A stretch of 46,102 nt of DNA. It comes from Chloroflexota bacterium (GTDB lineage Bacteria; Chloroflexota; Anaerolineae; Aggregatilineales; Ch27). Numbering within the stretch: position 1 is the stretch's first letter; the number at the start of each line of letters is the position of its first letter. Below, one piece after another: positions 9,834-33,702 of this stretch. A program made the translations under genes and the position numbers. The stretch lies in the NCBI GenBank assembly GCA_019873685.1, contig JAIOAT010000026.1, positions 1-46,102 of the forward strand, read 5' to 3'. The notes below the pieces were generated by a model. That model saw nothing but the letters and a program-made list of their open reading frames with translations, was not told the DNA's origin and did no database searches.

Positions 9834-10661
9834 TTAGTGTGCAGCCAGCCATGTGCTGACCTCCGCCAGGACGGTCTCCTTGCCCGGTTCATTGAAAATC
9901 TCATGGTACATGCCTTCGTAGGACCGGATGGTTTTATCCGCTGCGCCAAGCTCGCGGGCAAGGATCGTCAGGCTGGCGGGCGGGGCAATCGCATCTGCGT
10001 CGCCATGCAGGCACAGGCAGGGGATCGTGATCCGGGGCAGCCCGGCCCGCGCGTCATCCGCCAGTGCGATCAGCTCCAGGCCCTGCCGGGCGCTCAGCCA
10101 GCCGCGATAGTTGAGCGGATCGCTGTCGTAGGCTGCGCGCACTACCGGATCGCGGGAGATGTCGGCGGCGCTCAGCTTGACGACTGGCATCTGCGGCGCG
10201 ATTCCCGCCAGCAGCCCCGCCGCGCTCCGCAGCCAGCGGGGAGTCGTCTCCCCCAGCGCAACCGGTGCGCCGGAGGTGATCATCCCGGCCAGCAGGGACT
10301 GGTGGCGGGCGGTGAAAGCCAGCGCCAGCAGCCCGCCCATGCTATGCCCCAGGAGGAAGATCGGGCAGCCCGGATACGCCGCCGCTACCTGTTGAAAATA
10401 GCCCAGCAGATCCTCCAGGTACAGGCTGTAACGCTCAACGCGGGCACGCGGGCCGGGACTGTGGCCATGCCCGCGCAAGTCAAAGGCGCAGACGGCATAG
10501 CCCTGCGCGTTCAGGTGCGCCGCCACGTGGGCGTAACGCCCGCTGTGTTCGGCCACGCCATGCACCAGCAGAATCACGGCGCGGGCCTCGTCAACGGGCC
10601 ACTGCCGCGTGAACAGCGTCGTGCCATCCGGGGCCTGGAATGTACCGGTGATCTCGCTCAT
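9834..10661 (-). CDS. Alpha/beta hydrolase, monoacylglycerol lipase-like
   Basis: A 275-residue soluble hydrolase resembling bacterial monoacylglycerol lipases and lysophospholipases. The oxyanion strand is ILLVHGVAEHSGRY, RGHGHS follows, the nucleophile elbow GHSMGG puts Ser at residue 107, and an Asp/His pair is expected in the HGDADAIAP and GMYHEIFNEPG segments. It is the last gene of a closely packed leftward run (9 bases after the pyrophosphatase-like gene). Being there could be chance, or it could be a metabolic output of the signalling genes upstream. The substrate is not defined. Confidence 0.85.
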   Translation of the reverse strand: MSEITGTFQAPDGTTLFTRQWPVDEARAVILLVHGVAEHSGRYAHVAAHLNAQGYAVCAFDLRGHGHSPGPRARVERYSLYLEDLLGYFQQVAAAYPGCPIFLLGHSMGGLLALAFTARHQSLLAGMITSGAPVALGETTPRWLRSAAGLLAGIAPQMPVVKLSAADISRDPVVRAAYDSDPLNYRGWLSARQGLELIALADDARAGLPRITIPCLCLHGDADAIAPPASLTILARELGAADKTIRSYEGMYHEIFNEPGKETVLAEVSTWLAAH

Positions 10662-10670
10662 AGTCGCCTC

Positions 10671-11021
10671 TTAGCGTGGTTTAGGGCGCGGAATCAGAAT
10701 GGCGGCCTGGTGGCCGCGGTTGTGGCTCTGCAGGGCCAGCTGGGCTTCCTGTGGCGTGCAGCCCAGCAGGATCTTCAGTTCGGTTTCCCGCTTGAGCCGG
10801 TCTACCGTCCCGATCACGGCCACCACCTCGCGGTCCGGCAGGGAGCCAATCCACACATCGATCCCCTCGCCGTCCATGGTGCGGGTGTCATCCAGGTGGC
10901 CATAATCGAGCGGGTAGATGAAATCAGGATAGCGCGGATGGCGCGTGCCCGCCGGGCGGTCGATTGTGATCGAACTGACGGCGACCAGCGCATCCAGAAA
11001 CAGCCAGAAATCATCGCCCAT
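10671..11021 (-). CDS. Inorganic pyrophosphatase-like protein
   Basis: A 116-residue protein resembling short bacterial proteins annotated as inorganic diphosphatase. It has IDRPAGTRHPRYP, then YPLDYGHLDDT and the acidic DGEGIDVWIG motif that corresponds to the metal-binding DGDPLDV of family I enzymes. The middle Asp is replaced by Glu. The lysine/arginine-rich N-terminal substrate part and the D-x-D-x-K segment of the full enzyme are not recognisable, so real pyrophosphatase activity is doubtful. The start at ATG 11021 was chosen over longer readings because it has AAGGA at the right distance and does not overrun the neighbouring receiver gene. It lies 8 bases after that gene. Confidence 0.7.
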   Translation of the reverse strand: MGDDFWLFLDALVAVSSITIDRPAGTRHPRYPDFIYPLDYGHLDDTRTMDGEGIDVWIGSLPDREVVAVIGTVDRLKRETELKILLGCTPQEAQLALQSHNRGHQAAILIPRPKPR

Positions 11022-11029
11022 CGTCGTCC

Positions 11030-11386
11030 TTACTCCCCTTTCTCCAGCGCCGCCAGCACGGTCAGTAACTCCTCCCAGGGCACCCATTGCGCCTCCGGTG
11101 CGGCGGCCAGCGCCTTTTCCGCTGCTTCCGTCGAACCGCCGACGAAGATCAGCGGCAGGCGGCGCGTTGCTGCTGTTTCCCACAGGGCGCGGGCGAGTTC
11201 GCGGCTATGCGCCGCCCGGCGACTCAGGTCGATCACGATGGCATCCGGCGGCTCGTTCCGGATGATACGAAAGGCGCGCCCGCCATCCTCATTCTCAACT
11301 TCGACGAACCAGCCCGCGTCGCGCAAGGCGCAGGCGCGGCAGTCGACGTCCTCGCCCCACAGCACCAGCACGACCCGGCCTTTCAT
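11030..11386 (-). CDS. Degenerate receiver (response-regulator-like) domain protein
   Basis: A 118-residue single-domain protein with the fold pattern of a response regulator receiver: alternating strands VVLVLWGED, DAIVIDLS, LPLIFVGGS and QWVPWEELL. An Asp (53) sits where phosphorylation normally occurs. The paired acidic residues after strand 1 are shifted (WGED), the Thr/Ser after strand 4 is Gly, and the conserved Lys before the last helix is missing (VPW instead of KPF). It is therefore probably a pseudo-receiver used for protein contacts rather than phosphotransfer. The start at ATG 11386 avoids overlap with the FHA gene. It lies 14 bases after that gene. Confidence 0.65.
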   Translation of the reverse strand: MKGRVVLVLWGEDVDCRACALRDAGWFVEVENEDGGRAFRIIRNEPPDAIVIDLSRRAAHSRELARALWETAATRRLPLIFVGGSTEAAEKALAAAPEAQWVPWEELLTVLAALEKGE

Positions 11387-11400
11387 AGAATCCCGGCTCC

Positions 11401-11775
11401 CTACGGATCGATCCGCAGCCATGTCCGCCCAACGCGGAAGAGTTCGCCGGGCTTCAGTTCGGCGCTCTCGCTCCGCAACCGCCGGTCGTTCAATAGCGTG
11501 CCATTCTTGCTGCCATCGTCGGTCAACAGGAAGCGTAGCGGCCCACTTTGATGGGTGGCCGCGCCGTCGGCAATGGTCTCGTCATTGCTCAGGCAGATCA
11601 GGCTGGCGTGGCGGCGGGATACCTGCGAGTCATAGGGCAGCGAGATGTCGCACTCCTCGCTGCGGCCAATTGTCCACTGGGTCCTGCCGCCCAGGGCGGG
11701 CATCTGCAATAGAATCTGCAGCCCATCCTGCGGACCGCTCATGATGCGCAACGAGATCGTCCTGCCTGCCACCAT
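11401..11775 (-). CDS. FHA domain protein
   Basis: A 124-residue protein consisting of one forkhead-associated domain, the fold that binds phosphothreonine peptides. The three signature patches are present: GRS (after WTI), SRRHA and DDGSKNGTLLN. The Ser, Arg, His and Asn that contact phosphothreonine are all intact. No other domain is attached. Lying 18 bases downstream of a Ser/Thr kinase gene, it is the obvious reader for that kinase's products or autophosphorylation sites, as in other bacterial kinase-FHA pairs (established pattern; here inferred from proximity). Confidence 0.88.
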   Translation of the reverse strand: MVAGRTISLRIMSGPQDGLQILLQMPALGGRTQWTIGRSEECDISLPYDSQVSRRHASLICLSNDETIADGAATHQSGPLRFLLTDDGSKNGTLLNDRRLRSESAELKPGELFRVGRTWLRIDP

Positions 11776-11793
11776 CTTCCCCCTATCGGTAAA

Positions 11794-14700
11794 CTAGGAC
11801 GCTTCCGGCCCGGCCTCGCCCTGCCATAACCGGCGCGCCTCTGTCCGCCGCGTGCGGGAAGGCTCGTGCTGCGGGTTGAGGTTCAGCGCCTGGTTGAAGG
11901 CTTCGATCGCTTCCGGGTAGCGTCCCAGGCTCATCAGGGCTTCGCCCTGATTGTGCCAGAACCAGACATCCCCGCCATTGTAGCGGGTAGCCTGCTGGTG
12001 GTTGCGCAGGGCGTCCTCCCAGCGGCCCAGCGCGGCATAGGCCAGCCCCAGGCCGTTATAGGCCCAGGCGTACTGTGGATCGAGGGCGACGGCCCGCTCG
12101 TAACTGGCGATGGCTTCTTCGTGGCGATCCAGCCGGCGCAGGATCTGGCCGCGTCGCGCCCACAGGTTGGCGTTTTCAGCGTCAACTGCCAGAGCCTGGT
12201 CGACCACCGCCAGCGCCCGGTCATTCTGGTGCAGTTCCAGTAACGGATCAAGCTGGTTGGTGTAGTACCACAGCCCTGTCGGGTCCTCCTGCACAGCCCG
12301 CTCAAAGCTGGCCAGCGCTTCTTCGCGGCGTCCCAGTCCTTCCAGGGCCAGCCCGCGCCCATTCCAGGCCCAGGCGTAATGCGGGTCGATAGCCAGCGCC
12401 TGGTCATAGGCGACTACGGCCTCCTTGTAGCGCCCCAGGCGGCGCAGAACCTGCCCCTTCTTGGCCCAGGCCTCGATGTGCTGCGCATCCAGCGCCAGCG
12501 CCCGCTCCAGCGGCGCTAACGCCTCCTCATAGCGGTGCAGGACAACCAGCGCATCACCCTGGTTGTACCAGAACCAGGCGTCGCCCGGCTCTTCCTGGGT
12601 GGCCTGCTGGAAACACTCCAGGGCCAGGTCGGGCTGGCCGAGCGCACTGTGGATCAGCCCTTTGCCATTCCAGGCCCAGCCGTAATGGGGGTCAAGATGC
12701 AGGGCCTGCTCGTAGGCTTCCAGCGCCTCAGTCAGGCGATTCTGGCGGCGCAGCAGCTGACCGCGCTTGGCCCAGGCGCGGTGATGGGTGGGGCTGTGCG
12801 TCAGCAGGCGGTCAAGCAGGGCCAGCGCCTCGTCGTTGCGCTGTAGCGTGATCAGCAGATCGGCCTGGTTGTACAGGTAGAGGGGATTCTCCGGCTCGGC
12901 GGCCACCGCCTGCTCGTAAGCCTTCAGGGCGTCATCCAGACGCTGGATCGCCTCATAGACTGCGCCCAGTTCGTTCCAGGCCCAGGCGTAGGCCGGGTCC
13001 AGCTCAACCGCATGCTCCAGGTAGGGCAGCGCCTCCTGAGGGCGCCCCAGGTGGCGCAGGCAGTTGCCGATCCGCGCCCAGCTGCGGCTATGCTCCGGCT
13101 GGAGGGCGATGGCCTGTTTGAGCGGTTCCAGCGCCTCGTCGTAACGCTTGAGCAGCACCAGCACATTGCCCTGGTTGTACCAGTGCCAGACATCGCCCGG
13201 CATAGCTTCCGCCGCCCGCCGGTAGCATTCCAGGGCTTCGGCGTAGCGTTCCAGCCGCTCAAGAACGATTCCCTGGCCGTTCCAGGCCCAGCCGTAAGTC
13301 GGGTCGATCGCCAGCGCCCGGCTGTAGGCTTCCAGCGCCTCGTCATACTGCCGCAGATAGCGGTAGACCTGCCCCAGCTTGGCCCAGCTATAGGCATGCT
13401 GTGGATCGATCGTGATCGCCTGGCGGGCCGGGGCCAGTGCTTCGTCATAGCGGCCCAGTTCCACCAGCATCTCCACCTGGTTGTACCAGTGCCAGACCTC
13501 ATCCGGGGCGTCGCGGGCGGCGTCGCGGAAAGCGTTCAGCGCCTCCGCCCAGCGGCCAAGCGCCTTGAGGGCCAGGCCCAGGCCGTTGCTGGCCCAGCCG
13601 TAATCCGGCTGGAGCTTGAGGGCCATGCGGTAAGCCTTGACGGCGTCTTCGTAACGCTCCAGCAGGCGGTAAACCTGGCCGCGTTTAGCCCAGCTATGGG
13701 CATGCAGCGGATCGACCGATAGCGCCCGGTCGAGCATGGCCAGCGAGTCCTCGTGGCGGCCCAGCGCCTGCAGGATGTCCGCCTGGTTGTACCATGTCCA
13801 GACATCGCCCGGCTTGAGTTCGGAGGCGCGGCGGTACGCTTCCAGAGCTTCCTCTGCCCGGCCCAGCCGCTCCAGTACAATGCCTTTGCCGTTCCAGGCC
13901 CAGCCGTAATCCGGCGAGAAGTGGATGGCATTGTCGAAGGCGGCCAGCGCCTCGTCATAGCGGCCCAGCAGGCGCAACGTGCGGCCCTTGCGCGCCCAGG
14001 CCCAGGCGTAATCGGGCTGCAGGGCCAGCGCCCGATCGTAAGCTTCCAATGCTTCCTCTGCCCGGCCCAGTTCAGTCAGGCTGTAGCCCTTGTCCATCAG
14101 TTCGTGGGCCTCAAGCTGCGTCGCGCTGACTTCCAGGATCGGCGGCGCGCCGTGGATATCCGCATAGATCGCGCTCAAAGCCTGTACCACGGAGTCCCAG
14201 TCCGGGGGGCGTTCATCACGGTTCTTGGCCAGGCAGGAGAGCACCAGCCTGCTGAGCGCCTCGGGGATGTCTACCGCGACATCCTGAGGGATAACCGGCG
14301 TTTCGGTCAGGTGGGCGATGATCCAGGTGTGGAACTTACGTGCACCGAAGACCGGTCGCCCGGCCAGCATCTCGTACAGGATACAGCCAAAGGCGTAGAT
14401 ATCGGACCGCGGGTCGACTTCTTCGGCCCGGCATTGTTCTGGCGACATGTAAGGCGCAGTGCCGACGATCGCCCCGCCGCGCGTCAGGCGCTGCAGGTCT
14501 TCGTCCACATCGTCGGCAAAGGGCACGTCGCCGATCTCCACGGAACGCACCAGACCGAAGTCAGTCACCTTGGCGACTTCGTCATGGGTGACCAGGATGT
14601 TGGCCGGCTTGAGGTCGCGGTGAACCAGGCCCGGCATCTTCTGCTGGGCGTGGCTCATACCCAGGGCGATGTGCAGGCCGAAGGTGACCGCCTGCGGCAG

Positions 14701-15834
14701 GCCGATCCGGTTGTGCTCGATCCACCCGCGCAGGTCCGGCCCCAGCCCTTCCGGGCCGCTCACATGCTCCAGGAAGATGTGTGGGCGGTCGCGGATGGTG
14801 CGCACCACCCGCGCCTGGACGATGTTTGGGTGTTTCTCCAGCCGGACCCAGGTCAGCGCTTCCTGGACAAAGCGGGCGACGGCGCGGTCGTTCCCAAAAA
14901 AGCGCGACTGAAAGCTCTTGATCGCTACCGGCTCGCGCTGCTCGTGGTCGTAGCACAGGTAGACCACGCCCATCCCGCCGCGCAACACCTGGGCAACCTC
15001 GTAGCGATCTTCGATGCGCTCACCGGGGGCGAATTCATCCTCTACGGTCTGGACACTCTCCCGCCCCAGCGACAGGTATGGCATATCCACTGCCGAGAAA
15101 GCGCCTTCCGCCGCCCGTGCGGGCCTGTCTTCCGGCGGCGAATCGGGCGCGGCCTCCGCCGCCGGGCCGGTTGCCCGCACGGCGGGTTCCGCTTCGGATA
15201 GCGCCGGAGCGGCCACAGCCAGTTCATCCTGGGTATCCGTCAGGGCGCGGGGGAGGGGGGAGGGCATGGCCGCCACCGTCAGCGCCTCGCCGCGTTTGAC
15301 GGGCGGCGCGTTGAAGGTCAGGCCGCTCTCCAGGCCGACGGGGTACGCCTGAAGCAGGCGGAACAACATCCCCTGCAGCGCCTCGCTCTGCCGGTCGGGT
15401 TCGATCTCGGCGGCGGCCCACAGGGCCACGGCCACGTTGCGGGCCGAAGGCAATGCCAGGGCTGCCGCGCATACCCATTCCGCCAGGCGAGCGATGGCGT
15501 CCTCGGCCAGGGCGCGATCGGCATCGTTCGCGGCGCGGGCGGCAGCCCGCCGGTACGCCGTGAACGCCTTGCCGACGTAGAATACCCGCAGCTGGTCTTC
15601 CGCCAGGATGCGCTGGGCGCACAGATCGCCCAGGGCAAAGGCGTCGTCAGGCTCCGGCGGAACCCGCCGCAGGGCCAGCTGGCCGAGCTGGCGGATGTCC
15701 TTATCCGGATCGTTGGCGAATAGATCGACAGCGTCTTCTTTGTGGTGGGCCGAAAGCAGGCGGGCCGCCTCGGCGGCGGGCAGCGACGGCGCGGCGCGGT
15801 CGGTCTGAGGTACTGGTGGGATGGTCTGGTTCAT
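11794..15834 (-). CDS. Ser/Thr protein kinase with 22 TPR repeats
   Basis: A 1346-residue soluble signalling protein. Residues 1-275 are a partly helical, low-complexity N-terminal region. A Hanks-type kinase domain spans about 276-560, with a glycine loop (LRGGMGVVYLC), VAIKSF, the catalytic HRDLKPANILV, DFGLV and a GTAPYMSPEQ activation end, so it should be active. From about residue 575 to 1330 there are 22 tetratricopeptide repeats of 34 residues. Twenty-one of them form seven three-repeat units. There is no transmembrane helix, unlike PknB-type sensors. ATG 15834 has GAGG nine bases upstream; a TTG at 15855, overlapping the Clp stop, is an alternative. Followed after 18 bases by an FHA gene. 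Confidence 0.92.
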   Translation of the reverse strand: MNQTIPPVPQTDRAAPSLPAAEAARLLSAHHKEDAVDLFANDPDKDIRQLGQLALRRVPPEPDDAFALGDLCAQRILAEDQLRVFYVGKAFTAYRRAAARAANDADRALAEDAIARLAEWVCAAALALPSARNVAVALWAAAEIEPDRQSEALQGMLFRLLQAYPVGLESGLTFNAPPVKRGEALTVAAMPSPLPRALTDTQDELAVAAPALSEAEPAVRATGPAAEAAPDSPPEDRPARAAEGAFSAVDMPYLSLGRESVQTVEDEFAPGERIEDRYEVAQVLRGGMGVVYLCYDHEQREPVAIKSFQSRFFGNDRAVARFVQEALTWVRLEKHPNIVQARVVRTIRDRPHIFLEHVSGPEGLGPDLRGWIEHNRIGLPQAVTFGLHIALGMSHAQQKMPGLVHRDLKPANILVTHDEVAKVTDFGLVRSVEIGDVPFADDVDEDLQRLTRGGAIVGTAPYMSPEQCRAEEVDPRSDIYAFGCILYEMLAGRPVFGARKFHTWIIAHLTETPVIPQDVAVDIPEALSRLVLSCLAKNRDERPPDWDSVVQALSAIYADIHGAPPILEVSATQLEAHELMDKGYSLTELGRAEEALEAYDRALALQPDYAWAWARKGRTLRLLGRYDEALAAFDNAIHFSPDYGWAWNGKGIVLERLGRAEEALEAYRRASELKPGDVWTWYNQADILQALGRHEDSLAMLDRALSVDPLHAHSWAKRGQVYRLLERYEDAVKAYRMALKLQPDYGWASNGLGLALKALGRWAEALNAFRDAARDAPDEVWHWYNQVEMLVELGRYDEALAPARQAITIDPQHAYSWAKLGQVYRYLRQYDEALEAYSRALAIDPTYGWAWNGQGIVLERLERYAEALECYRRAAEAMPGDVWHWYNQGNVLVLLKRYDEALEPLKQAIALQPEHSRSWARIGNCLRHLGRPQEALPYLEHAVELDPAYAWAWNELGAVYEAIQRLDDALKAYEQAVAAEPENPLYLYNQADLLITLQRNDEALALLDRLLTHSPTHHRAWAKRGQLLRRQNRLTEALEAYEQALHLDPHYGWAWNGKGLIHSALGQPDLALECFQQATQEEPGDAWFWYNQGDALVVLHRYEEALAPLERALALDAQHIEAWAKKGQVLRRLGRYKEAVVAYDQALAIDPHYAWAWNGRGLALEGLGRREEALASFERAVQEDPTGLWYYTNQLDPLLELHQNDRALAVVDQALAVDAENANLWARRGQILRRLDRHEEAIASYERAVALDPQYAWAYNGLGLAYAALGRWEDALRNHQQATRYNGGDVWFWHNQGEALMSLGRYPEAIEAFNQALNLNPQHEPSRTRRTEARRLWQGEAGPEAS
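11868..14112 (-). repeat. DNA coding for 22 TPR repeats, 102-base period with a 306-base higher order
   Basis: The kinase gene's 3' half is a tandem series of 34-codon units. Three alternating types recur in fixed order: WAKxGQ-, WAWNGxG- and WxWYNQ-type openings. Seven such triplets follow one leading repeat. This implies growth by duplication of a 306-base block. Confidence 0.88.
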
Positions 15835-15851
15835 ATCCTCTTGCCTCGCGC

Positions 15852-18194
15852 TCAAAACGATGGCGAGCCTGACTGATCTTCTTCTTCCCGGTATACCTCG
15901 GCTGATCCTGCGGTGAAGGTCAGGCCGTCTTCCCCCTGGCGCACATAGATCGTCTGGCCGGGGGCAAAGGTGTCTTCCAGCAGCAACGCGCTCAGGGGGC
16001 GGGTCAGCAGGCGCTCAATCGCTCGCCGCAGCGGGCGTGCCCCCCGCGCCGGGTCGTACCCTTCCTGCAGGAGCGCCTGCCGCGCCGATTCATCCAGGAT
16101 TAGCGTCAGTTTCTGCTGGGCCAGGCGTTCGCGCAACTCACGCAGTTGCAGGTCAAGGATGCGGTTGAGGTCTTCTGTGCTCAGCGCCCGGAAGGTCACT
16201 ACCTCGTCCAGCCGGTTCAGGAATTCCGGGCGGAAGAATTCGCGGAGGTGCTCGGCGTAATCCGGCAGGCGGTCATCCGGCTGTTGCCCGAAGCCCAGAC
16301 CGCGCACGCTCTCCCCCGCGCCGATGTTGCTGGTCATAATGAACACGGCATGGCGGGCGTCAACCGTCCCGCCGCGCGAATCAGTCAGGCGCCCTTCGTC
16401 AAACACCTGCAGGAAAAGGTCAAAGACCTCCGGAGCCGCTTTTTCGACCTCGTCCAGCAACACCACGCTGTAGGGGCGGCGGCGCAGGGCCTCGGTGAAT
16501 TGACCGCCACGGTCAGCGTCGCGGTAACCGGGCGGCGCGCCAATCAGACGGGCTACCGTATGCGCGTCATGGTATTCAGACATATCCAGCCGGATCAGCG
16601 CTTCTTCCGTACCGAAGAGGAATTCGGCCAGGGCCTTGGCCAGCTCAGTCTTGCCCACGCCTGATGGCCCCAGGAACAGGAACACCCCGATCGGTCGGTC
16701 GGGGTCAGACAGCCCTGCCCGCGCCTGTTTGATGGCGGCGGCGACCGCCCGGACTGCCTGATCCTGACCGACCACGCGGGCCTTGAGCGCCGCTTCCATA
16801 GTCGCAAAACGGCGGCGTTCGTCGGCGGTCAGTTCGGCTACCGGGATGCCCGTCCACTCCGCCAGCACCATAGCGACCATCTGCGCTGTGACCTCATTGG
16901 AGGCGGGAGTCTCAGAAGTGGTGGTGCGCACCACCAGCCGCGCACAGGCCTCATCGATCAGGTCAAGCGCCTTATCCGGCAGGCGGCGCTCTGGCTGGTA
17001 GCGCACCGACAGGCGCACGGCTGCCTCCAGCGCCTCAGGGCGGATGGTCACGCCGTGGTGGCGCTCGTAGTTTTCCCGCAGAGCAGAAAGGATGGCCAGC
17101 GCGTCCTGCTCGCTTGGCTCGCGGATTTCGATGACGCGGAACCGGCGGTCAAGCGCCGGGTCCTGGGCGATCACGCGCCGGTATTCCTCGACTGTCGTGG
17201 CGCCGATACAGCGCAGGTCCCCGCGGGAAAGCGCCGGTTTGAGGATATTGGCGGCGTCCAGATTGCTTTCCACGGTATCGCCTGCGCCGACAATCGTGTG
17301 AATCTCGTCGATGAACAGGATGACATCCGGGGCCTCCTTGAGTTCATCCAGGATGCCCACCAGCCGCTCCTCAAACTGGCCGCGCAGGCTGGTCCCGGCC
17401 ACCAGTGTGCCCAGTTCAATCGCCACGATCCGCCGGTCAGCGATGGAGGGTGGGGCGGTGCCGTTGGCGATGGCCCAGGCCAGTCCTTCAACTACCGCCG
17501 TTTTGCCTACGCCGGAATCGCCCACCAGCAGAGGATTGTTTTTCTTGCTGCGGACGAGTGTCCGCACCAGGCTGCGGATTTCCTGTTCGCGCCCGATGGC
17601 CGGGCCGATCTTGCCTGCCCACGCCTGGGCGACCAGGTCGCGCCCGAATTTATCCAGCAGGGGCGTCGGCGCGTGGCGCAGGACTTCGGTCGGGCGGCGC
17701 ACCTCCTCCCCGGCGACCTCCAACACCCCTGCTTCGCGGCGGGCCTCCGCCTCCCGGATGAGCAGGTTAGTCCAGTAAGTCAGGTCAAAGCCAAGCGCCG
17801 CCAGGCAGCGCACGGCGACGCCTTCGCCCTCCTTGAGTAGAGCCAGCAGGAGATGCTCCTCTGTGACCGCATCTTCATCCTCGTCGTCGGCGGCGTAGAT
17901 GGCCAGGGAGAGCACCAGGCGGCTGCGCGGCGTGAGGGGGATGGGTTCGGTGGGGTGATCACTGCCCCGTCCAGCGGCCTCCCGCACGGCCAGACGCACT
18001 GCCGCCGGGTCCAGGCCCGCGTCAGTCAGCAGCCGCCGCGTGCGCCCACCCTCGATTTTGGTCAGGGCGATGAAGAGATGCTCGGTGCCGATGTAGTTAT
18101 GTTCCAGGCGGATAGCTTCGTCCGTTGCCAGGCTGAGCAAATGCTGGCAACGCTCGCGGATTTCCTGTTCGCTGATCTCAGGTGGGAGTGTCAC
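15852..18194 (-). CDS. Clp/Hsp100 ATPase (ClpC/ClpA-like) lacking the middle domain
   Basis: A 780-residue two-ring AAA+ unfoldase. The N-terminal domain opens with LEHNYIGTEHLFIAL, the usual Clp_N repeat. The first ATPase has GDSGVGKTAVVEGLA and LFIDEIHTIVGAG. The second has GPSGVGKTELAKALA and VVLLDEVEKA, with a C-terminal ClpB-type cap. The coiled middle domain that ClpC normally has after the LIDEAC segment is missing: only about 20 residues separate it from the AEWTGIPV box. A GLGFG loop in the second ring is close to the ClpP-docking loop of ClpA/ClpC. GTG 18194 is the likely start, because the only upstream ATG (18287) lies above the -10 at 18238-18243. Confidence 0.88.
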   Translation of the reverse strand: MTLPPEISEQEIRERCQHLLSLATDEAIRLEHNYIGTEHLFIALTKIEGGRTRRLLTDAGLDPAAVRLAVREAAGRGSDHPTEPIPLTPRSRLVLSLAIYAADDEDEDAVTEEHLLLALLKEGEGVAVRCLAALGFDLTYWTNLLIREAEARREAGVLEVAGEEVRRPTEVLRHAPTPLLDKFGRDLVAQAWAGKIGPAIGREQEIRSLVRTLVRSKKNNPLLVGDSGVGKTAVVEGLAWAIANGTAPPSIADRRIVAIELGTLVAGTSLRGQFEERLVGILDELKEAPDVILFIDEIHTIVGAGDTVESNLDAANILKPALSRGDLRCIGATTVEEYRRVIAQDPALDRRFRVIEIREPSEQDALAILSALRENYERHHGVTIRPEALEAAVRLSVRYQPERRLPDKALDLIDEACARLVVRTTTSETPASNEVTAQMVAMVLAEWTGIPVAELTADERRRFATMEAALKARVVGQDQAVRAVAAAIKQARAGLSDPDRPIGVFLFLGPSGVGKTELAKALAEFLFGTEEALIRLDMSEYHDAHTVARLIGAPPGYRDADRGGQFTEALRRRPYSVVLLDEVEKAAPEVFDLFLQVFDEGRLTDSRGGTVDARHAVFIMTSNIGAGESVRGLGFGQQPDDRLPDYAEHLREFFRPEFLNRLDEVVTFRALSTEDLNRILDLQLRELRERLAQQKLTLILDESARQALLQEGYDPARGARPLRRAIERLLTRPLSALLLEDTFAPGQTIYVRQGEDGLTFTAGSAEVYREEEDQSGSPSF

Positions 18195-18357: not shown

Positions 18358-19944
18358 ATGAGACATCCCAACGATGATGAGAATCGCCTGCCGCAGGAAG
18401 TCATCCTGCTGGCCAGCATTGCGGAACTGCTGAACTCGCTTGACCTGGACACTGTACTGGCCAGGACGCTTTCCCTGTTGACCGAGAGCGTCGGCGCAGA
18501 CCGTGGGAGCTTTTTTGTGTTCAGCCCGACCAGCACCACCGCCGAACGCTACATCATTCACCGCGACCTGCCGCCGGAGCGCTCTCAGATGGTTGTGGAG
18601 CAGGTGCTACAATCCGGACTGGCTGGATGGGTATACCGCCAGCGACAGGCGGCGCTGGTCAATGACACGCTGAACGACCCGCGCTGGGTGACCTTCCCGG
18701 ATGATCCGCTGCCCATTCGCTCGGCGCTGTGCGTGCCGTTCATGGTGGCCGAGCGCATCAACGGCATCATGACCCTGGAATGCTTCCAGCCGGGTCAGTT
18801 CACCGAGGCTGACCTGCGCCTGGCCACGACCGTCGCCAACCAGGCAGCGCTTACGCTGCATAACGCCCAGCTTTTTCACCGCGTAGAGACGCAACAGCGC
18901 CAGCTACAGGCCGTCCTGCAAAGCACGCATGCGCCCATCCTGACCGTCACCGCGTCAGGACAGATCCGGCTGGCTAACCCAGCGGCGCTGGCGATGATCG
19001 GCCTGTCTGCTTCCAGCATCACCGGCCAGCCCCTGGAGGCGCTGGAACACTGCGCCGTTTGCCCGGCGGTGGCCCAGCGAATCGCCGCTGGCGAAACACG
19101 CTTTGAGTTGCATGATGAGACTGCCCAGCGCGATTACGATGTGCAGGTTTCCAGCTGGCGGGAGGGCGATTCAGGCGAAGCCGGATACGTGATCGTCTTC
19201 AATGACATCACCACGCTCAAGGACCTGGACCGCCTCAAGACTCAGATGATCCGGACGACCTCCCACGACCTGCGCAACCCGCTGATGGTCATCCTGGGCT
19301 ACACCGAGATGATGCTGGCTGAACTGGACCCGGACAGCCCGCAGTTCGAGCGGGTCGCCGAGATCACCAAGGTCACCCAGCGCATGCTGGACACGGTCAC
19401 CCAGCTTCTCAGCCTCGAGCGCATCGAATCGACCATCCGGGGGACGGGTGAGTTGTTCTGCCCGCTGGATCTGATTCAGGATGTTGTAGCTGGTCTGGCT
19501 CCTCTGGTCGCCCGCAAAGGGCACACGGTGACCATCCACCTGCCGGAGACCCGTCCGCGCGTCCGGGGTGCACCCGCCCTGCTACGCGAGGCCTTCCTCA
19601 ACCTGATCGATAACGCCATCCAGTACACCCCGGATGGCGGGCAGATCGACGTTCACGCCAGTGTCGATTGGGAACGGCGTCGCTTTGACTTTGCGGTGGA
19701 GGATAACGGCTACGGCATTCCCCGCCATCTGCAGGCCGACCTGTTCAAGCAGTTCTACCGGGCCAGGCAACCGGGCACCGAGCGCATCCCCGGCACCGGG
19801 CTGGGGCTGAGCTTGGTCAAGGCCACGGTGGAGCATCACGGCGGGGAGGTCTGGTTTGAGAGCGCGCCGGGCGTGGGCAGCACGTTCGGCTTCTGGTTGC
19901 CCCTGCCAGAAGGTGAGGAAGCTCTGGAAACCGTCGGCGCTTGA
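18358..19944 (+). CDS. Soluble GAF-PAS sensor histidine kinase
   Basis: A 528-residue cytoplasmic sensor kinase with no membrane segment. Order of domains: GAF (about 15-180), a PAS-type segment (about 190-290), HisKA with the phosphorylated His at residue 303 in TSHDLRNPL, and an HATPase_c domain (about 395-515). The ATPase domain has an N box LIDNAIQYTP, a G1 box DNGYGIP and a G2 box GTGLGLSLV. Every catalytic block is intact. A Cys pair in EHCAVCP within the PAS stretch could sense redox state or bind metal, which is a guess. AGGAGA precedes the start. It diverges from the Clp-kinase operon. No paired response regulator is adjacent, though a single-domain receiver lies far away at 41972. 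Confidence 0.92.
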   Translation: MRHPNDDENRLPQEVILLASIAELLNSLDLDTVLARTLSLLTESVGADRGSFFVFSPTSTTAERYIIHRDLPPERSQMVVEQVLQSGLAGWVYRQRQAALVNDTLNDPRWVTFPDDPLPIRSALCVPFMVAERINGIMTLECFQPGQFTEADLRLATTVANQAALTLHNAQLFHRVETQQRQLQAVLQSTHAPILTVTASGQIRLANPAALAMIGLSASSITGQPLEALEHCAVCPAVAQRIAAGETRFELHDETAQRDYDVQVSSWREGDSGEAGYVIVFNDITTLKDLDRLKTQMIRTTSHDLRNPLMVILGYTEMMLAELDPDSPQFERVAEITKVTQRMLDTVTQLLSLERIESTIRGTGELFCPLDLIQDVVAGLAPLVARKGHTVTIHLPETRPRVRGAPALLREAFLNLIDNAIQYTPDGGQIDVHASVDWERRRFDFAVEDNGYGIPRHLQADLFKQFYRARQPGTERIPGTGLGLSLVKATVEHHGGEVWFESAPGVGSTFGFWLPLPEGEEALETVGA

Positions 19945-25665: not shown

Positions 25666-27666
25666 CTAGCTCCCCCTCGCCGGGGCGGGGGTGACTGCCG
25701 CCGGCGTCCTACCGTTGCCGGAGCCGTTCACGGCCTGCTGAAGCTCTGCCTGCCGGCGGAACTGGCTCATGTACAGGTTGTAGTAAGCGCCCCGGGCGGC
25801 CAGCAGACTCTCATGGGTGCCACGCTCAACAATCCGGCCATCTGCGATGACCAGTACCTGGTCGGCGTTGCGGATTGTGCTCAGGCGGTGAGCAATGACA
25901 AAGCTGGTGCGGCCTTTCATCAGCTCGGCCAGCGCCTGCTGGATCAGGCGCTCGGTGCGCGTGTCCACGCTGCTGGTCGCCTCATCCAGGATCAAGATGC
26001 GCGGGTTGCTCAGGGCGGCGCGGGCGATCGCCAGCAACTGGCGCTGCCCCTGGGAAAGCCCTGCACCGCGCTCGCCCAGCACCGTCTGGTAGCCGTCCGG
26101 CAGGCGCTCGATGAATTCGTGGGCGCGGGCCAGCTTGGCCGCGGCGATCACCTCGTCATCCGTGGCGTCAGGCCGCCCGTAGCGGATGTTCTCCATAACC
26201 GTTGTGCTGAACAGGAAAGTATCCTGCAGGACGATGCCGATCTGCTCGCGCAGGCTGCGGCTGGTTACATCGCGCACATCGATGCCGTCGATCCGCACCG
26301 CCCCGCCGCAGACATCGTAGAAACGCGGGATCAGGTTGATGATCGTGGTCTTTCCCGCGCCGGTCGGCCCGACGATGGCCACCATCTGGCCTGGTTCCGC
26401 CCGCAGGCTTACCCGCTCCAGCACCGGTTCGCCGGGATTATACTCCGCACAGACCTCGTCAAATTCGACCAGGCCCTTGATCGGCGGCATCTCGATAGCA
26501 TCGGGTTTGTCAGTCAGGTCCGGCACGGTGTCCAGAATGCCGAAGATGCGTTCCCCGCCGGCGATCGCATTCTGGATGTTGGTCCACATGACGGAGATCT
26601 GGGCGACCGGCTGGTTGATCCGCTGCACGTATTGCAGGAAGGTGATGATCAGGCCGAGCGAGATGGTCGCCCCGGCCAGTGTGCCATCCCCGACCAGCAA
26701 CACGGCCCCGCCGACGCCGACCACCAGCGCCATGGAGACATACCCCAGCGCTTCCAGCAACGGGTTCAGGGCGCTGGTGAAGGCCACCGCGCGGATGTTA
26801 GCGTCGCGGTTAGCGGCGTTGGAGGCGCGGAATTGCTCGATGTTCTCATCCTCGCGGCTGAAGGCTTGCACCTCGCGTACAGCGGCGATGCTTTCCTGTA
26901 GATCGGCGTTGACCGACCCCATCTCCTGGCGGGCGCGGCGGAAGGCCTTCCGCGCCTGCCCTGAGAAATAGGTGGTCACCACAACCATGACCGGCACGAT
27001 CGCCAGGCTGATCAGCGTGTAGACCACGCTCTTGGTCAGCATGGTGTACACCACCCAGACAATCAGCACGACACTGGTGAAGACATTGACCAGGGCGAAG
27101 CTGAACGCCTGCTCAATTGCTGAAGCGTCGTTGGTGATCCGGCTCATCAGGTCGCCGGCTTCATGCTTGGTGAAGTAGTTCATCGACAGGCGATGAATAT
27201 GCCGGAAGACGTCAACGCGCATCTGGCGCAGGGCGTAGGCGCCCATCCAGCGCATTGCATAGAACACCAGACCGTTGAGAAGCGCCGAGACGATATACAG
27301 CACAGCGATGAGCAGCACCAGCTGCCCCATCCCGGCGATGGCTTCTTCTGGTGCGGCCTCCCCGCTGACCGGGGTGGTATACCAGCAGTTGGACGCCACA
27401 GGTGAGTTTTCGCCGCCCATCAGGGCTGCGGCTGCTGCTCCGCCGCCCAGTCGCGGCGTGATGTAGCAGTCAAAAACCTGCCCGGTCAGGTCTGGCGTGA
27501 TCACCTGCATCCAGGTATTGACCAGCACCAGGGCAATGAGCGCCAGCAGCACCCACCAGTACGGCCTGAAGTACTCGGCAAAGCGCCGCAATGTCTGGCC
27601 AATGTTTTGTGGTTTCGATGTTTCCTGGGCCAGCATGCGATGCGGCCCGCCAGCCATAAAGCCCAT
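25666..27666 (-). CDS. ABC exporter half-transporter with the consensus catalytic site
   Basis: A 666-residue half-transporter: six membrane helices (about 40-350) then an ATPase domain. Walker A is GPTGAGKTT. Walker B is ILILDEATSSVD with the catalytic Glu, and the H-loop is VIAHRLST. The signature is LSQGQ instead of LSGGQ. An unusual long loop after the first helix carries two Cys and a Gly/Ala-rich run. The start overlaps the stop of the first ABC gene (TAATG at 27664-27668), with GGAGGTGG placed well. It should pair with that subunit as an asymmetric heterodimer, exporting a drug, lipid or peptide of unknown identity. Confidence 0.92.
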   Translation of the reverse strand: MGFMAGGPHRMLAQETSKPQNIGQTLRRFAEYFRPYWWVLLALIALVLVNTWMQVITPDLTGQVFDCYITPRLGGGAAAAALMGGENSPVASNCWYTTPVSGEAAPEEAIAGMGQLVLLIAVLYIVSALLNGLVFYAMRWMGAYALRQMRVDVFRHIHRLSMNYFTKHEAGDLMSRITNDASAIEQAFSFALVNVFTSVVLIVWVVYTMLTKSVVYTLISLAIVPVMVVVTTYFSGQARKAFRRARQEMGSVNADLQESIAAVREVQAFSREDENIEQFRASNAANRDANIRAVAFTSALNPLLEALGYVSMALVVGVGGAVLLVGDGTLAGATISLGLIITFLQYVQRINQPVAQISVMWTNIQNAIAGGERIFGILDTVPDLTDKPDAIEMPPIKGLVEFDEVCAEYNPGEPVLERVSLRAEPGQMVAIVGPTGAGKTTIINLIPRFYDVCGGAVRIDGIDVRDVTSRSLREQIGIVLQDTFLFSTTVMENIRYGRPDATDDEVIAAAKLARAHEFIERLPDGYQTVLGERGAGLSQGQRQLLAIARAALSNPRILILDEATSSVDTRTERLIQQALAELMKGRTSFVIAHRLSTIRNADQVLVIADGRIVERGTHESLLAARGAYYNLYMSQFRRQAELQQAVNGSGNGRTPAAVTPAPARGS

Positions 27667-29591
27667 TACGCCACCTCCTGACCGGCAGCCAGAACCGCCG
27701 ATTCGTCGTCATCTGTCAGCGCGGTATCTTCCACCAGTTGCGAGGTATAGATTTCCGCGTAAAGCTCGCTGCTTTCCAGCAGGTCCTCATGCTTGCCCGC
27801 CGCCACAATCCGGCCCTTATCCAGCACCAGAATCTGATCGGCGTTGACCACGGTGCTGATGCGCTGCGCGATCACGAAGCTCGTACGCCCCTGCATCAGG
27901 CCCTTGAGCGCCTGCTGGATGTGATACTCGGTGGTCACATCGACGCTGCTTGTTGAGTCATCCAGAATCAGGATGCGCGGGTCCATCAGCAGGGCGCGGG
28001 CGATGGCGATGCGCTGCTTTTGCCCGCCGCTTAACGTAGAGCCGCGCTCGCCGACCAGCGTGTCGTAGCCCTGCGGGAATTCCATGATGAAGTCGTGGGC
28101 TGCGGCAGCGCGCGCCGCCGCCTCGATCTCCTCCTGGGATGCATTGGGTCGCCCGAAGGCGATGTTATCGCGGATGGTGCCGCTGAAAAGTGTGGCTTCC
28201 TGCAGAACGATGCCGATCTGGCGGCGCAGGCTGGCCAGGGTTACATCGCGGATGTCCCGCCCGTCAATGGTGATCCGGCCTTCCGAAACATCGTAGAAAC
28301 GCGGGATCAGGTTGATGATCGTGGTCTTGCCGCTGCCGGTTGCGCCCAGCAGGGCCACCGTCTGACCCGGCTCCGCCACAAAACTCACGTCATTCAGCAC
28401 CGGCTCCCCGCTCTTGAAGTAGCGGAAGGTGACATGCTCAAAGGCTACCCGCCCCCTGATTGGCGGCATTTCCACCGCGCCGGGTCGGTCGGTCACCTCG
28501 CTCTCAGCGTCCAGGATGTCGAAGACGCGCTGGGCGGAAGCCGCTGCCTGGGACATCAGCGAGACGATCATGCCCAGCTGACCGAGCGGGAAGAACACAT
28601 ACATCAGGTACAGGCTGAACTTCTGCCATTCACCGATCGTCAGCGTACCGTAGATGATCTGTTGCCCACCAAAATACAGCACGGCGACCTGCCCCAGGCT
28701 GGCAACCAGAAAGACTACCGGGAACAGGAAGGAAAACACGCGGGCCACCTTGAGCGCCTGTTGCAGGTGGGAATCCACCGCCGCCTCAAAGCGGGCCTGC
28801 TCCTTTGGCTCCTGCACAAAGGCTTTGACCAGCTTCAGCCCGGCCAGATTCTCCTGGAGAACAGTGTTCAGCGCGGAAAGACGCTTTTGCAGTTCGCCGA
28901 ACAACGGTTGGGCCAGCATGCCAAAGACCAGGAATAGCGCCAGTGCAATCGGCAGAGTAGGTAAAACGACCAGCGTGATCTGCCAGTTGGTGGTTAGCAG
29001 GATGAGCAACGTGGCGACCAGCAACAGGATGGATTCCAGGAGCATCGTCAGCCCCTGACCAATGAACAGGCGCAGCCGTTCCACGTCATCGGTGGCGCGC
29101 ACCATCAGCTGACCGGTCTGGTTGCGGTCGTGATAGCTAAACGACAGGCGCTGAATCTTCGCATACAGTTCGTTGCGGAAGTCAAAGGCCAGGTATTGAG
29201 AGAGCTTTTCTGCAAAGTAGCCGCGCAGGAAGGAGAAGGTCGCCCGCGCCACCGCAAAAGCGACGATGGCCGCCAGCGCCCCCAGTAACGCCGGAAAAGC
29301 GGAATCGGCGTCTGCCTGTAGCCGTTCCGGGGTGGTGCCCATCGCTGTGGCGGCTAACCCCCGCGCCAGCAGCGGCAGTTCCAGCACCCGGTGGGCCACG
29401 TACCCGCTGGTGATGGCATCCATGATGTTCTGGATCAGTTGGGGGATGGCCAGTTGGGCCAGCGTGGCTACCACCAGACTGCCGTAGGCCACCAGCGCCA
29501 TCTGCCGGAATCGCCCGATGTAGCGTATCCCCCGCATGAGCTGGGGGAAGCTGCTCGGCGGGCGAGCAGCCCCGGTTGAGTCGCCGCGCAT
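27666..29591 (-). CDS. ABC exporter half-transporter with the degenerate catalytic site
   Basis: A half-transporter of about 641 residues from ATG 29591. A TTG at 29630, overlapping the MarR gene by 8 bases, is an alternative start. Six membrane helices precede the ATPase domain. Walker A GATGSGKTT is intact and the signature LSGGQ is consensus. Walker B ends LILDDSTSSVD, with Asp in place of the catalytic Glu, and the H-loop reads VIAQRIST, with Gln in place of His. These changes mark the degenerate subunit of heterodimeric exporters such as TM287/288 and LmrCD, where the other subunit supplies the working site. It is translationally coupled to its partner. Confidence 0.92.
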   Translation of the reverse strand: MRGDSTGAARPPSSFPQLMRGIRYIGRFRQMALVAYGSLVVATLAQLAIPQLIQNIMDAITSGYVAHRVLELPLLARGLAATAMGTTPERLQADADSAFPALLGALAAIVAFAVARATFSFLRGYFAEKLSQYLAFDFRNELYAKIQRLSFSYHDRNQTGQLMVRATDDVERLRLFIGQGLTMLLESILLLVATLLILLTTNWQITLVVLPTLPIALALFLVFGMLAQPLFGELQKRLSALNTVLQENLAGLKLVKAFVQEPKEQARFEAAVDSHLQQALKVARVFSFLFPVVFLVASLGQVAVLYFGGQQIIYGTLTIGEWQKFSLYLMYVFFPLGQLGMIVSLMSQAAASAQRVFDILDAESEVTDRPGAVEMPPIRGRVAFEHVTFRYFKSGEPVLNDVSFVAEPGQTVALLGATGSGKTTIINLIPRFYDVSEGRITIDGRDIRDVTLASLRRQIGIVLQEATLFSGTIRDNIAFGRPNASQEEIEAAARAAAAHDFIMEFPQGYDTLVGERGSTLSGGQKQRIAIARALLMDPRILILDDSTSSVDVTTEYHIQQALKGLMQGRTSFVIAQRISTVVNADQILVLDKGRIVAAGKHEDLLESSELYAEIYTSQLVEDTALTDDDESAVLAAGQEVA

Positions 29592-29622
29592 GCGTTTCCG
29601 TGAAGGTGTCGGTACAGTGATC

Positions 29623-30126
29623 TCAGCCAAGGTTTTCCGTCTCCGTATCGTCTGTCGCGTTCACTTCCGTCTGATCCACCGCGTCGCCCAGGTTGGCACG
29701 GAGGCGCTCCAGCAGGGCGCGCAACTGATCGCGCTCCTGGGCGCTGAACCCGGCAAAGGCAACCTGCTCGATCTCCGTTACAACTGCCGGGAAAGTCTGC
29801 ATCATGGCCCGCCCTGCATCTGTCAGGTGGATGAGCATGGCCCGCGCGTCAGCGGGGTGCGGCGTGCGCTGCAAGAGACCGTCACGTTCCATGTCGCTTA
29901 ACAGGCGGCTCATGCTGGCCGCTGTCACGCCCAGGCAGCGGCGCAATTCAGCGGCGGTGACGCCCTCGGTGCGGTGGGCCAGGTGTCCTAGCACCATCCC
30001 CCGCGTCCGGTTGAGACCGGCGGCCTGAGCGCGGCTTTCCACCGCCCGGCCCAGCACGCGCACCGTGTGAAACAACTGATAGGTAAGGCTGTCCGCCGCA
30101 AACGGCGGCGGAGGTGGTCTGCGCAT
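29623..30126 (-). CDS. MarR family transcriptional regulator
   Basis: A 167-residue winged-helix regulator, first gene of the exporter operon. The helix-turn-helix lies around VTAAELRRCLGVTAASMSRLLSDME, and the wing carries the family's D-x-R (HPADARAMLIHLT). The N-terminal and C-terminal helices should form the dimer. The last 20 residues are acidic and disordered-looking. Its start is at ATG 30126 with GGAGAGG. A palindrome covers its own transcription start region, so it very probably represses itself and the two ABC genes until a ligand, likely an exporter substrate, binds. Confidence 0.92.
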   Translation of the reverse strand: MRRPPPPPFAADSLTYQLFHTVRVLGRAVESRAQAAGLNRTRGMVLGHLAHRTEGVTAAELRRCLGVTAASMSRLLSDMERDGLLQRTPHPADARAMLIHLTDAGRAMMQTFPAVVTEIEQVAFAGFSAQERDQLRALLERLRANLGDAVDQTEVNATDDTETENLG

Positions 30127-31905: not shown

Positions 31906-33702
31906 TCATTCTTCCAGCGGCAGGCTCTCCAGGTAGCGGATCAGGCGCTCGATATCGGCCAGGGGCAGCGTCTTGACCAGCGCGTGCGGGCCGTCGTCGG
32001 CCTTGAACACCTCGAACAGCGTCGGCGCGCGGCCATCGTGATAGTAGGGTGCACTGTCCCACAGCCAGCGCAGCGACGGCGTGTTGATCGGCCCCTGGCC
32101 CAGATCATGCGCCAGCCCGTCTGTGTACAGCGGCGGTGCGTGGCATTCGGCGCAACCCTGGGCCAGCCAGACTTCTTCGCCGGCCAGCACGTCCTGCGGC
32201 GGGATGCGCAGGGCGTTGCGCCCCGGCCCGCTGAGCGTGTTCAGGTAAGCCACCAGGGCGTCCAGATCGGGGGAGCGCCCGGCGTTCGGCTCGCCCAGCG
32301 GCGGGTGCGGCACGCCGTCGATCAGCCCGTCGCCGTGCTGCACCATCCGGAAGAACAGGTCGAAGTCGGCCAGTTCATCGTATTCCCCGCGCCAACCCCA
32401 GGGAGCCGTCTGGGCCACATTGTAGAGCGACGGCGTATTGCGCGGCCCGCCGGGGAAGCCGACCCATACCTGGCCGTCATCGGCGCCGTCAAAGTGGCAT
32501 GTCGCGCAGCTCAAACGGCGATCTTCAGAGAGCCGTTCATCCGCGCTGCCATAGAATAGCTGCGCCCCGATCAGCAGGTCGATGGGCATCTGCAATTGCG
32601 TGGCCGGGAGTGTATCTACCCGCTGCATAAAGGCTGTTTCAATCACGGAGATCGTGCCATCCAGCGCGTTGTAGACGTAAGCCCACCGGCCATCGGAGGT
32701 GGTGACGATGCCGCGCGGGTTGTTGCCCACGGGGATGTTGGCCACGGCGAAGCCGGTCGCCAGGTCGATCACGGAGACGTCATTGCTGCCCGCGTTGACT
32801 ACCCAGAGCCGCCGCCGCGCCCGGTCAAAGAGCAGGTCGAATGGCAGGCTGACCGGCCGGTCGGCCACGCCCAGCGCCACGCGTTCCTGGCGCAGCAGGC
32901 GCATGTCGCTCAGTTGAAAGGCATTGACCACCGGGAAGACCGTTGTATCGAAGGTCAGCACCGGATTGGCGGCATTGGCCCGCGTCGCCGGGACGTAAGC
33001 GCGGCCATCGAATGGACTGACCCATACCGTCGGGGATAGCCGGGAATCCGGTGTGCCGCGCACAGTATCGGCGACCTGCCCGGTAGGGCGGTACAGCAGG
33101 GAGAGCGCGCCGTCCTTGAAATGCGTCACATACAGGAAGTCGCCCCACAGCGCCAGCCCGGCGGGCGAGTCGGGCACGGGCAGCGTGCGCAACACGCGCC
33201 GTGAGGCGACATCGATCTCAGCCACGGCGTCATCGCCCTGCAGGGTCACGTACAGTGTTGCCCCGTCGGTCACCACGCCCCACGGCCATAGCCCCACCCG
33301 GATGGTATCGGTCAGGGTGAAGGTGTTCAGGTCGATCAGGCTGACCGTGCCCGCTGCGCGGGAGGTGACTGCCATCCAGGTTTGATCCGGGGAGACGGCC
33401 AGCCCGCGCGGATCGCCGCCGACCGGGATTTCTACCCTGATTTCCTTGCGAGCGAGGTCGACAACCGACACCGTGCCGCTGAAGGCGTTGGCCGTCACCG
33501 CGTAGCGCTGGTTGCCGACCAGAGCGATTACCGTGTTGCGGAAGACGCGCGTCGCGTTGGGGTCGGGCAACGCGTAGAGCGGGCGGGGCGTCGGCGTGAA
33601 GCCGGCCTGCGCCTGCGCCGGGACCCCCGGCAGCAGCGCCAGCATGAGCAGCAGGAGGCCGCCCGCCAGCAGGGCGGGCATCAGCCAGGGTTTCCCGGTC
33701 AT
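31906..33702 (-). CDS. Exported beta-propeller and di-heme cytochrome c peroxidase-like protein
   Basis: A 598-residue exported protein. A signal peptide ends about residue 31 (VPAQAQA). Residues 50-350 are YVTN-type propeller repeats (NAFSGTVSVVDLARK, SNDVSVIDLATGFAVANIPVGNNPRG). The C-terminal part has two heme c attachment motifs, CATCH and CAECH, with a MauG/cytochrome c peroxidase-like layout (RNTPSLYNVAQTAPWGWRGE, TPSLRWLWDSAPYYHDGRAP). It is probably an electron-transfer or redox enzyme outside the membrane. It overlaps the preceding 1285-residue protein gene by four bases (33699-33702), so the two are co-translated and likely form one extracellular complex. Confidence 0.85.
   Translation of the reverse strand: MTGKPWLMPALLAGGLLLLMLALLPGVPAQAQAGFTPTPRPLYALPDPNATRVFRNTVIALVGNQRYAVTANAFSGTVSVVDLARKEIRVEIPVGGDPRGLAVSPDQTWMAVTSRAAGTVSLIDLNTFTLTDTIRVGLWPWGVVTDGATLYVTLQGDDAVAEIDVASRRVLRTLPVPDSPAGLALWGDFLYVTHFKDGALSLLYRPTGQVADTVRGTPDSRLSPTVWVSPFDGRAYVPATRANAANPVLTFDTTVFPVVNAFQLSDMRLLRQERVALGVADRPVSLPFDLLFDRARRRLWVVNAGSNDVSVIDLATGFAVANIPVGNNPRGIVTTSDGRWAYVYNALDGTISVIETAFMQRVDTLPATQLQMPIDLLIGAQLFYGSADERLSEDRRLSCATCHFDGADDGQVWVGFPGGPRNTPSLYNVAQTAPWGWRGEYDELADFDLFFRMVQHGDGLIDGVPHPPLGEPNAGRSPDLDALVAYLNTLSGPGRNALRIPPQDVLAGEEVWLAQGCAECHAPPLYTDGLAHDLGQGPINTPSLRWLWDSAPYYHDGRAPTLFEVFKADDGPHALVKTLPLADIERLIRYLESLPLEE

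Follow-up and report, generated by a model that had tools for sequence, protein, structure and literature searches.

Previous research has shown that PknG autophosphorylates threonines in a disordered stretch N-terminal to its kinase domain, and that these recruit a forkhead-associated (FHA) protein (PMC8546545). A precedent for proteolysis that follows phosphorylation is RseA, which is phosphorylated by PknB and then degraded by ClpC1P2 (PMC11173970). ClpC itself is kept resting by its middle domain (M-domain), and is constitutively active and toxic when M-domain contacts are missing (PMC12583610). Our analysis of contig C26 of a Chloroflexota bacterium of the order Aggregatilineales (46,102 bases, the whole of which we call the window, from a 4.1-Mb genome that is 97% complete) has revealed an operon encoding a ClpC-like unfoldase without M-domain, a Ser/Thr kinase with tetratricopeptide repeats (TPRs) and an FHA protein. 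Judged by gene order in relatives, the conserved unit is a core of these three genes that is maintained order-wide. We tentatively favor the view that they form a phosphothreonine (pThr)-dependent module that regulates or feeds a ClpP-partnered unfoldase, a reading that we regard as quite possible although short of probable. The proposal is based on gene order, co-occurrence, intact enzymes and an intact reader, the ClpP loop, a single ClpP, the missing M-domain and a motif in the kinase linker.

Conservation of the Clp, kinase and FHA genes

Six genes run in the same direction on the minus strand, from 18194 to 9834. The three core genes and their features are as follows (aa, amino acids; D1 and D2, the two AAA+ modules).

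15852..18194, minus strand: M-domain-less ClpC-like double-ring unfoldase, 780 aa (Pfam, alignment to solved proteins)
16284..16304, minus strand: RGLGFGQ loop in D2 with the ClpP-docking tripeptide LGF, which aligns with VGF of B. subtilis ClpC
11794..15834, minus strand: TPR Ser/Thr kinase, 1346 aa, with helical N-domain, variable linker, kinase domain and TPR array
15298..15828, minus strand: N-terminal domain of the kinase, starting PPVPQTxR, TPR-like and all-helical (ortholog alignment, AlphaFold2)
15223..15237, minus strand: DTQDE, kinase residues 200-204, candidate autophosphorylation and FHA-docking site
14161..15030, minus strand: protein kinase domain with intact VAIK, HRDLK and DFG (Pfam, alignment)
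11401..11775, minus strand: single-domain FHA protein, 124 aa (Pfam, ortholog alignment)

Downstream of these lie genes for a receiver-like protein, an inorganic pyrophosphatase (PPase)-like protein and a hydrolase. Orthologs support a GTG start at 18194 for the Clp gene and ATG starts at 15834 (kinase), 11775 (FHA), 11386 (receiver-like), 11021 (PPase-like) and 10661 (hydrolase). With these starts the gaps from Clp to hydrolase are 17, 18, 14, 8 and 9 bases. Because the spacing is just 8-18 bases, the first-pass annotation was right to describe six leftward genes in a tight operon, and by this spacing they are one tight transcription-like unit. A promoter scan gave a single weak match that was no better than shuffles. 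The gene contents had also been named correctly, with Pfam giving Clp, TPR kinase, FHA and Hydrolase_4 (S33), a weak match for the PPase-like protein, and the receiver recognized by structure.

Neighborhoods were counted in a named set of 75 kinase loci with kinase identities of 56-80%. All are labelled as Chloroflexota or Anaerolineae, except for three that appear to be mislabelled metagenome-assembled genomes, and the members labelled to order are mostly Aggregatilineales or Phototrophicales. In other phyla, kinase identity falls abruptly to 34-37%. Among the 62 loci with enough sequence, 54 have the Clp gene immediately before the kinase, on its upstream side (gap of at most 60 bases in 37), and FHA directly follows the kinase in 53/65 (gap of at most 60 bases in 47). 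The adjacency is retained at about 50-60% protein identity in several families. An S33-type hydrolase comes next in 22 of 61 loci, and by this count is a frequent, non-universal fourth member of the operon. The six-gene set had initially been proposed as the conserved unit. That idea survives for the three-gene core, which is kept together order-wide; the full set is conserved together only in the window's own family.

We also queried 61 genomes for Clp and for the order-specific N-domain of the kinase. Both were present in 41 genomes and neither in 18; two had Clp only, and none had the kinase only (Fisher p of about 1e-13, in a test that ignores shared descent). The joint absences are spread over several families and genera. 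For example, G026, whose genome is 88% complete, has neither gene, and four congeners have both. This shared presence and absence, along with adjacency across families, counts against mere co-transcription. Co-transcription would be expected if the locus were a plain stress operon, in which an accessory ClpC-like protease is expressed alongside a kinase-FHA pair that resembles PknG, senses nutrients or stress, has targets elsewhere (metabolic enzymes, for instance) and does not interact with Clp. There is precedent for metabolic control by a kinase and an FHA protein (PknG-OdhI), clp is apart from kinase-FHA in some genomes, and the remaining nearby genes vary between families. Nevertheless, the near-perfect co-occurrence, joint absences included, and the adjacency retained over such divergence lead us to consider this explanation unlikely, as does a fusion of Clp_N to a kinase-like domain found elsewhere beside a homologous FHA.

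The fusion is encoded at a second locus of the same genome (C1:216838; C1:216820-219183 = L045:8821-11184). Its FHA protein is 39% identical to the window's, shares the FRVGRTWLR tail and directly precedes a 668-aa fusion of Clp_N to TCAD9, where TCAD9 overlaps an APH-like kinase match. The same pair is present in at least four other genomes (G025, G040, G046 and G050). G128 and G161 belong to a different order of the class; there, the closest relative of the M-domain-less Clp is a CHAT fusion that likewise has no M-domain, and a kinase-TPR gene follows 8 bases on. By gene content, both related loci again link Clp_N or Clp to kinases, and the first links FHA too. Clp relatives outside the order (about 50% identical) are standalone in G101, G139 and G170 and are otherwise proteins of about 1200-1270 aa. 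Outside the order, an adjacent kinase was found only in the G128/G161 pair, and no FHA was found there.

The CHAT fusion was confirmed by Pfam in L277, and similar proteins are found in family f77. At L277:2203-7502 and in L278, proteins of about 1270 aa join a CHAT protease-like domain, Clp_N and a full M-domain-less Clp. The kinase-TPR gene begins 8 bases after them, a sigma-factor-like gene lies upstream, and further genes on the downstream side encode a TPR protein and an Hsp70-TPR protein. The f77 proteins (L290-L296, from another class) are Clp proteins of about 1190-1240 aa, similar along most of the CHAT-Clp length, with neither a kinase nor an FHA gene adjacent to Clp.

The unfoldase, the kinase and the FHA protein

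The Pfam layout of the unfoldase is two Clp_N repeats, AAA, AAA_2 and D2-small, and both Walker motifs are intact in D1 and in D2. Its closest solved relatives are ClpC/MecB; when it is aligned to B. subtilis ClpC, residues 411-466 of the latter, the M-domain, stay unpaired. At 35 residues, the D1-D2 linker is shorter than in the genome's two other ClpC-like proteins (86-88) and in E. coli ClpB (about 150), which bears out the earlier description of a Clp protein without middle domain. Since the M-domain is absent, we call the protein ClpC-like and not ClpC. By comparison with the two other ClpC-like proteins, which bear an M-domain, it is a specialized paralog. Loss of the M-domain should, by analogy with ClpC, remove the resting-state lock, and a paralog without this lock presumably needs another form of control.

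Partnership with ClpP is suggested by the docking tripeptide ([LIVMF]GF), which is present in 101/101 readable Clp orthologs (from two sets, with some genomes counted twice); the genome has one ClpP gene. Curated NCBIfam models were used to examine other identities. ClpA was rejected because the score of 691.9 is under the model cut-off of 993.15, despite a similar architecture (no M-domain, ClpP loop). ClpB was rejected on a score under its cut-off, the absence of the long M-domain and the presence of the ClpP loop. ClpV (TssH) was rejected on a score of 686.7 against a cut-off of 884.95 and on the absence of a sheath gene of the type VI secretion system (T6SS) from the genome, where VipB was not found (E. 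coli control positive). The same two results dismiss a T6SS module.

These results bear on two other explanations. In the first, Clp is a target or recycler, so that the kinase phosphorylates Clp, or Clp remodels and dismantles the kinase-FHA assembly much as ClpV acts on T6SS sheaths after contraction, and proteolysis plays little or no part. The operon logic would be identical, the FHA protein has no visible adaptor segment, and PpkA, Fha and ClpV show that a kinase, an FHA protein and a Clp-type ATPase can work together in T6SS regulation. However, the tripeptide found in all readable orthologs would be superfluous in a remodeller that acted wholly without ClpP, and the closest solved relatives are ClpC. 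We therefore think this role improbable. The second explanation is that the locus belongs to a secretion system (the T6SS threonine-phosphorylation pathway) or to a conflict system of the CHAT/ternary type. In its favor, the genes bring PpkA-Fha-ClpV to mind, a related Clp occurs as a CHAT fusion, and the FHA paralog has as its neighbor a protein with TCAD9, whose name comes from ternary conflict systems. Nevertheless, Clp is closer to ClpC than to ClpV models and no obvious effector lies beside the core, making such a system very unlikely. No ternary/CHAT conflict gene was seen beside the core, and PADLOC matches were just generic kinase/AAA.

The kinase is also intact. Catalytic Lys, HRDLKP and DFG are kept by every ortholog compared, and the nearest solved kinase domain in the PDB is that of PknB. 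TPR arrays usually serve as protein-binding scaffolds. Self-identity of the array in the window's kinase is 0.29 at a lag of 34 residues, 0.32 at 68 and 0.44 at 102, and the 102-residue periodicity was also found in most families, indicating that the array consists of repeated blocks of three TPRs. About seven such blocks occupy 11794-14127 of the window, and array length is near-constant in most families.

The N-domain was predicted with a mean AlphaFold2 pLDDT of 92 and has an invariant core in the ortholog alignment. Foldseek gave no significant match for it, and the best helical-repeat matches from VIA-align reached Z 10.1, a value within the range common for helical bundles. We label it just TPR-like because these matches are weak and there is no confident PDB match. 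A sample of 298 genomes gave no match to it in the class beyond the order, and by these searches the domain is order-restricted in the samples covered. One hit came from the wider phylum, a protein with an N-domain (PPPQTGR start) and TPRs encoded at L161:10125-11198, in a 5,801,598-base genome of another class; it has no kinase domain, and neither Clp nor FHA is nearby.

FHA recruitment may involve the linker between N-domain and kinase domain. Linker sequences vary freely among the aligned orthologs apart from one short motif, which reads [S/D]ETRx[D/E] in other families and has DTQDE as its counterpart in the window's family. Of 70 kinase linkers, 44 contain a generalized form, [DE]T[RQ]x[DEG], versus a mean of 3.0 and a maximum of 8 in 300 shuffles that ignore shared descent. 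FHA domains classically read the residue at pThr+3, as in the pTxxD preference of Rad53 FHA1. Among 38 linkers selected on ETR alone, 29 have D or E at +3, compared with a linker background of 21%. The motif is thus a plausible candidate for an FHA docking site of the PknG-GarA/OdhI kind. A conserved threonine motif in this otherwise variable linker is new in this analysis.

The FHA protein carries all the GR, SxxH and NG signatures of pThr binding, and residues G37, R38, S53, R54, H56, N91 and G92 are invariant among 60 proteins, in which the C-terminal FRVGRTWLR segment is nearly invariant. It does not have the N-terminal ETTS tail of GarA/OdhI, and for this reason resembles a reader rather than a GarA-type switch. 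A sequence search of the PDB with the FHA protein gave no match.

Accessory genes and neighbors

The remaining operon genes and a divergent neighbor are:

11030..11386, minus strand: receiver-like protein with a family-specific insertion (structure comparison)
10671..11021, minus strand: small inorganic-pyrophosphatase-like protein, family-specific (sub-threshold Pfam match)
9834..10661, minus strand: S33 / monoacylglycerol-lipase-like alpha/beta hydrolase (Pfam Hydrolase_4, S33)
18358..19944, plus strand: GAF-PAS histidine kinase, divergent and not part of the core (Pfam)

The receiver-like protein has no Pfam match. A receiver fold was predicted for a natural relative (Foldseek match 2zay, E 2.8e-5). 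The first-pass annotation held that it had lost its phosphotransfer residues; this is true of the acidic pair and the Lys, but the acceptor Asp is kept in 4/4 orthologs. Of the set found in phospho-competent receivers (acidic pair, Asp, Thr/Ser, Lys), mainly the Asp remains. The PPase-like protein scores 23.3 with Pfam InPase, under the cut-off of 26.8, and is short compared with the roughly 170 aa of family I pyrophosphatases, with DG(E/D/G)GID and YPLDYG motifs present. Both genes are limited to the window's own family. They occur together in G001 and G003 and are fused in G002 as one 258-aa protein (L040:13055-13831).

Upstream of the core, a divergent second Ser/Thr kinase is present in 35 of the 62 loci with room for it, not including the window's genus, where genes for a GAF histidine kinase and a STAND-like ATPase take its place. 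The window's family and some others likewise carry the GAF-PAS histidine kinase on the upstream side of the operon. These three proteins are possible inputs to the module. One divergent second kinase, encoded upstream of clp at L133:16118-17965, has a likely membrane-spanning segment and an extracytoplasmic-looking C-terminal part. Elsewhere in the window, 33699-37556 encodes a 1285-aa protein without Pfam match at 1e-8, which adjoins a YncE-like propeller / MauG-like di-haem protein (31906-33702), and 25666-30126 encodes a MarR-type regulator and two adjacent ABC exporter half-transporters in the same direction.

Proposed role and comparison with known systems

In the pThr-dependent module that we favor, a signal would activate the TPR kinase, often through the divergent second kinase or GAF histidine kinase next door. 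The TPR kinase would then autophosphorylate the threonine of [S/D]ETRx[D/E] or DTQDE, where FHA would dock as in PknG-GarA/OdhI. The resulting assembly could act as an adaptor, or deliver one, to the Clp N-domain, and defined clients or complexes would be unfolded and degraded by Clp with ClpP. The hydrolase may be a frequent downstream effector or client, and the receiver-like and PPase-like proteins may be family-specific additions. A narrower version is pThr-gated degradation, in which clients are scaffolded by the TPR kinase, FHA binds the linker once it is phosphorylated (and might bind phosphorylated clients as well), and the clients pass from this assembly to the unlocked ClpC-like protein, to be degraded with ClpP. 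This version would be a Ser/Thr equivalent of the pathway from phosphoarginine to ClpCP and could loosely be compared with proteolysis driven by phosphodegrons. We consider it possible, if doubtful. Gene order suggests, without proving, phosphorylation control of protein destruction; that Clp degrades phosphorylated clients, as the first-pass annotation also proposed, is an inference.

Several observations weigh against the module. Some genomes have Clp about 10 kb from the kinase or on another contig, and about one-fifth of loci have no adjacent FHA. The linker motif is absent from 11 of 44 kinases with adjacent FHA, its association with adjacent FHA is weak (p = 0.056, uncorrected for relatedness), and both the shuffle and Fisher tests ignore shared descent. 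No segment known to contact Clp_N is visible on FHA as an adaptor. Further, operon membership points to a functional link without giving its direction, and Clp could be no more than the regulated or disassembling partner.

If the proposal is true, it would represent a way into a Clp protease that depends on Ser/Thr phosphorylation and has its own phospho-reader, in bacteria where phosphoarginine has so far been the well-studied mark. It would also show how a ClpC-like unfoldase is restrained without a resting-state lock. The prediction is sharp: a single threonine in a short linker motif, a single FHA domain and a single unfoldase, small enough for in vitro work. Even without the degradation model, the kinase-FHA-Clp set marks an unstudied signaling hub in a whole order of environmental Chloroflexota. 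A literature search for Clp, FHA and kinase together, with most subscription papers outside its coverage, found no description of such a system. None of the passages found in a 2020 survey naming components with FHA, kinase and Clp_N domains describes this gene set (PMC7159879).

The closest described system on the signaling side is the actinobacterial PknG-GarA/OdhI pair, which also combines a kinase with a C-terminal TPR array and a small FHA partner (PMC8546545). In both cases a threonine lies N-terminal to the kinase domain, phosphorylatable in PknG (PMC8546545) and a candidate for phosphorylation here. Neither the rubredoxin domain found in most PknG members nor PknG_TPR is among the matches listed for the window's kinase (25 of 38 Pfam families), and its N-domain is helical. 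In contrast to PknG-GarA/OdhI, the kinase domain is nearest to PknB, the TPR array is much longer, FHA has no ETTS tail, and a Clp unfoldase is present in the operon.

On the effector side, the unfoldase shares two Clp_N repeats, two AAA+ rings and an LGF-type ClpP loop with ClpC/ClpC1 and with ClpI of Actinomycetota; however, ClpC and ClpI both bear an M-domain (PMC10149685) and the window's protein does not. It further differs from ClpC in being a third ClpC-like paralog, beside two with M-domain, with a fixed kinase and FHA neighborhood. In the McsB-ClpC phosphoarginine pathway, too, a ClpC-type unfoldase is combined with a protein kinase, so the principle that phosphorylation can cue degradation is already known. 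The McsB mark, however, is on arginine and is read directly by the ClpC N-domain, whereas here we find a Hanks-type Ser/Thr kinase and a pThr reader. PpkA-Fha-ClpV of the T6SS threonine phosphorylation pathway also unites kinase, FHA and Clp-type ATPase; unlike that pathway, our locus has no T6SS sheath gene in its genome and encodes a ClpC-like protein with a ClpP loop rather than ClpV. In RseA/PknB/ClpC1P2, Ser/Thr phosphorylation is tied to a ClpC protease (PMC11173970), as proposed here, but that system is described without an FHA adaptor and without a kinase-FHA-Clp operon (PMC11173970). In conclusion, the signaling side of this locus resembles PknG-FHA and its effector side resembles ClpC-ClpP, and neither definition fits it in full.

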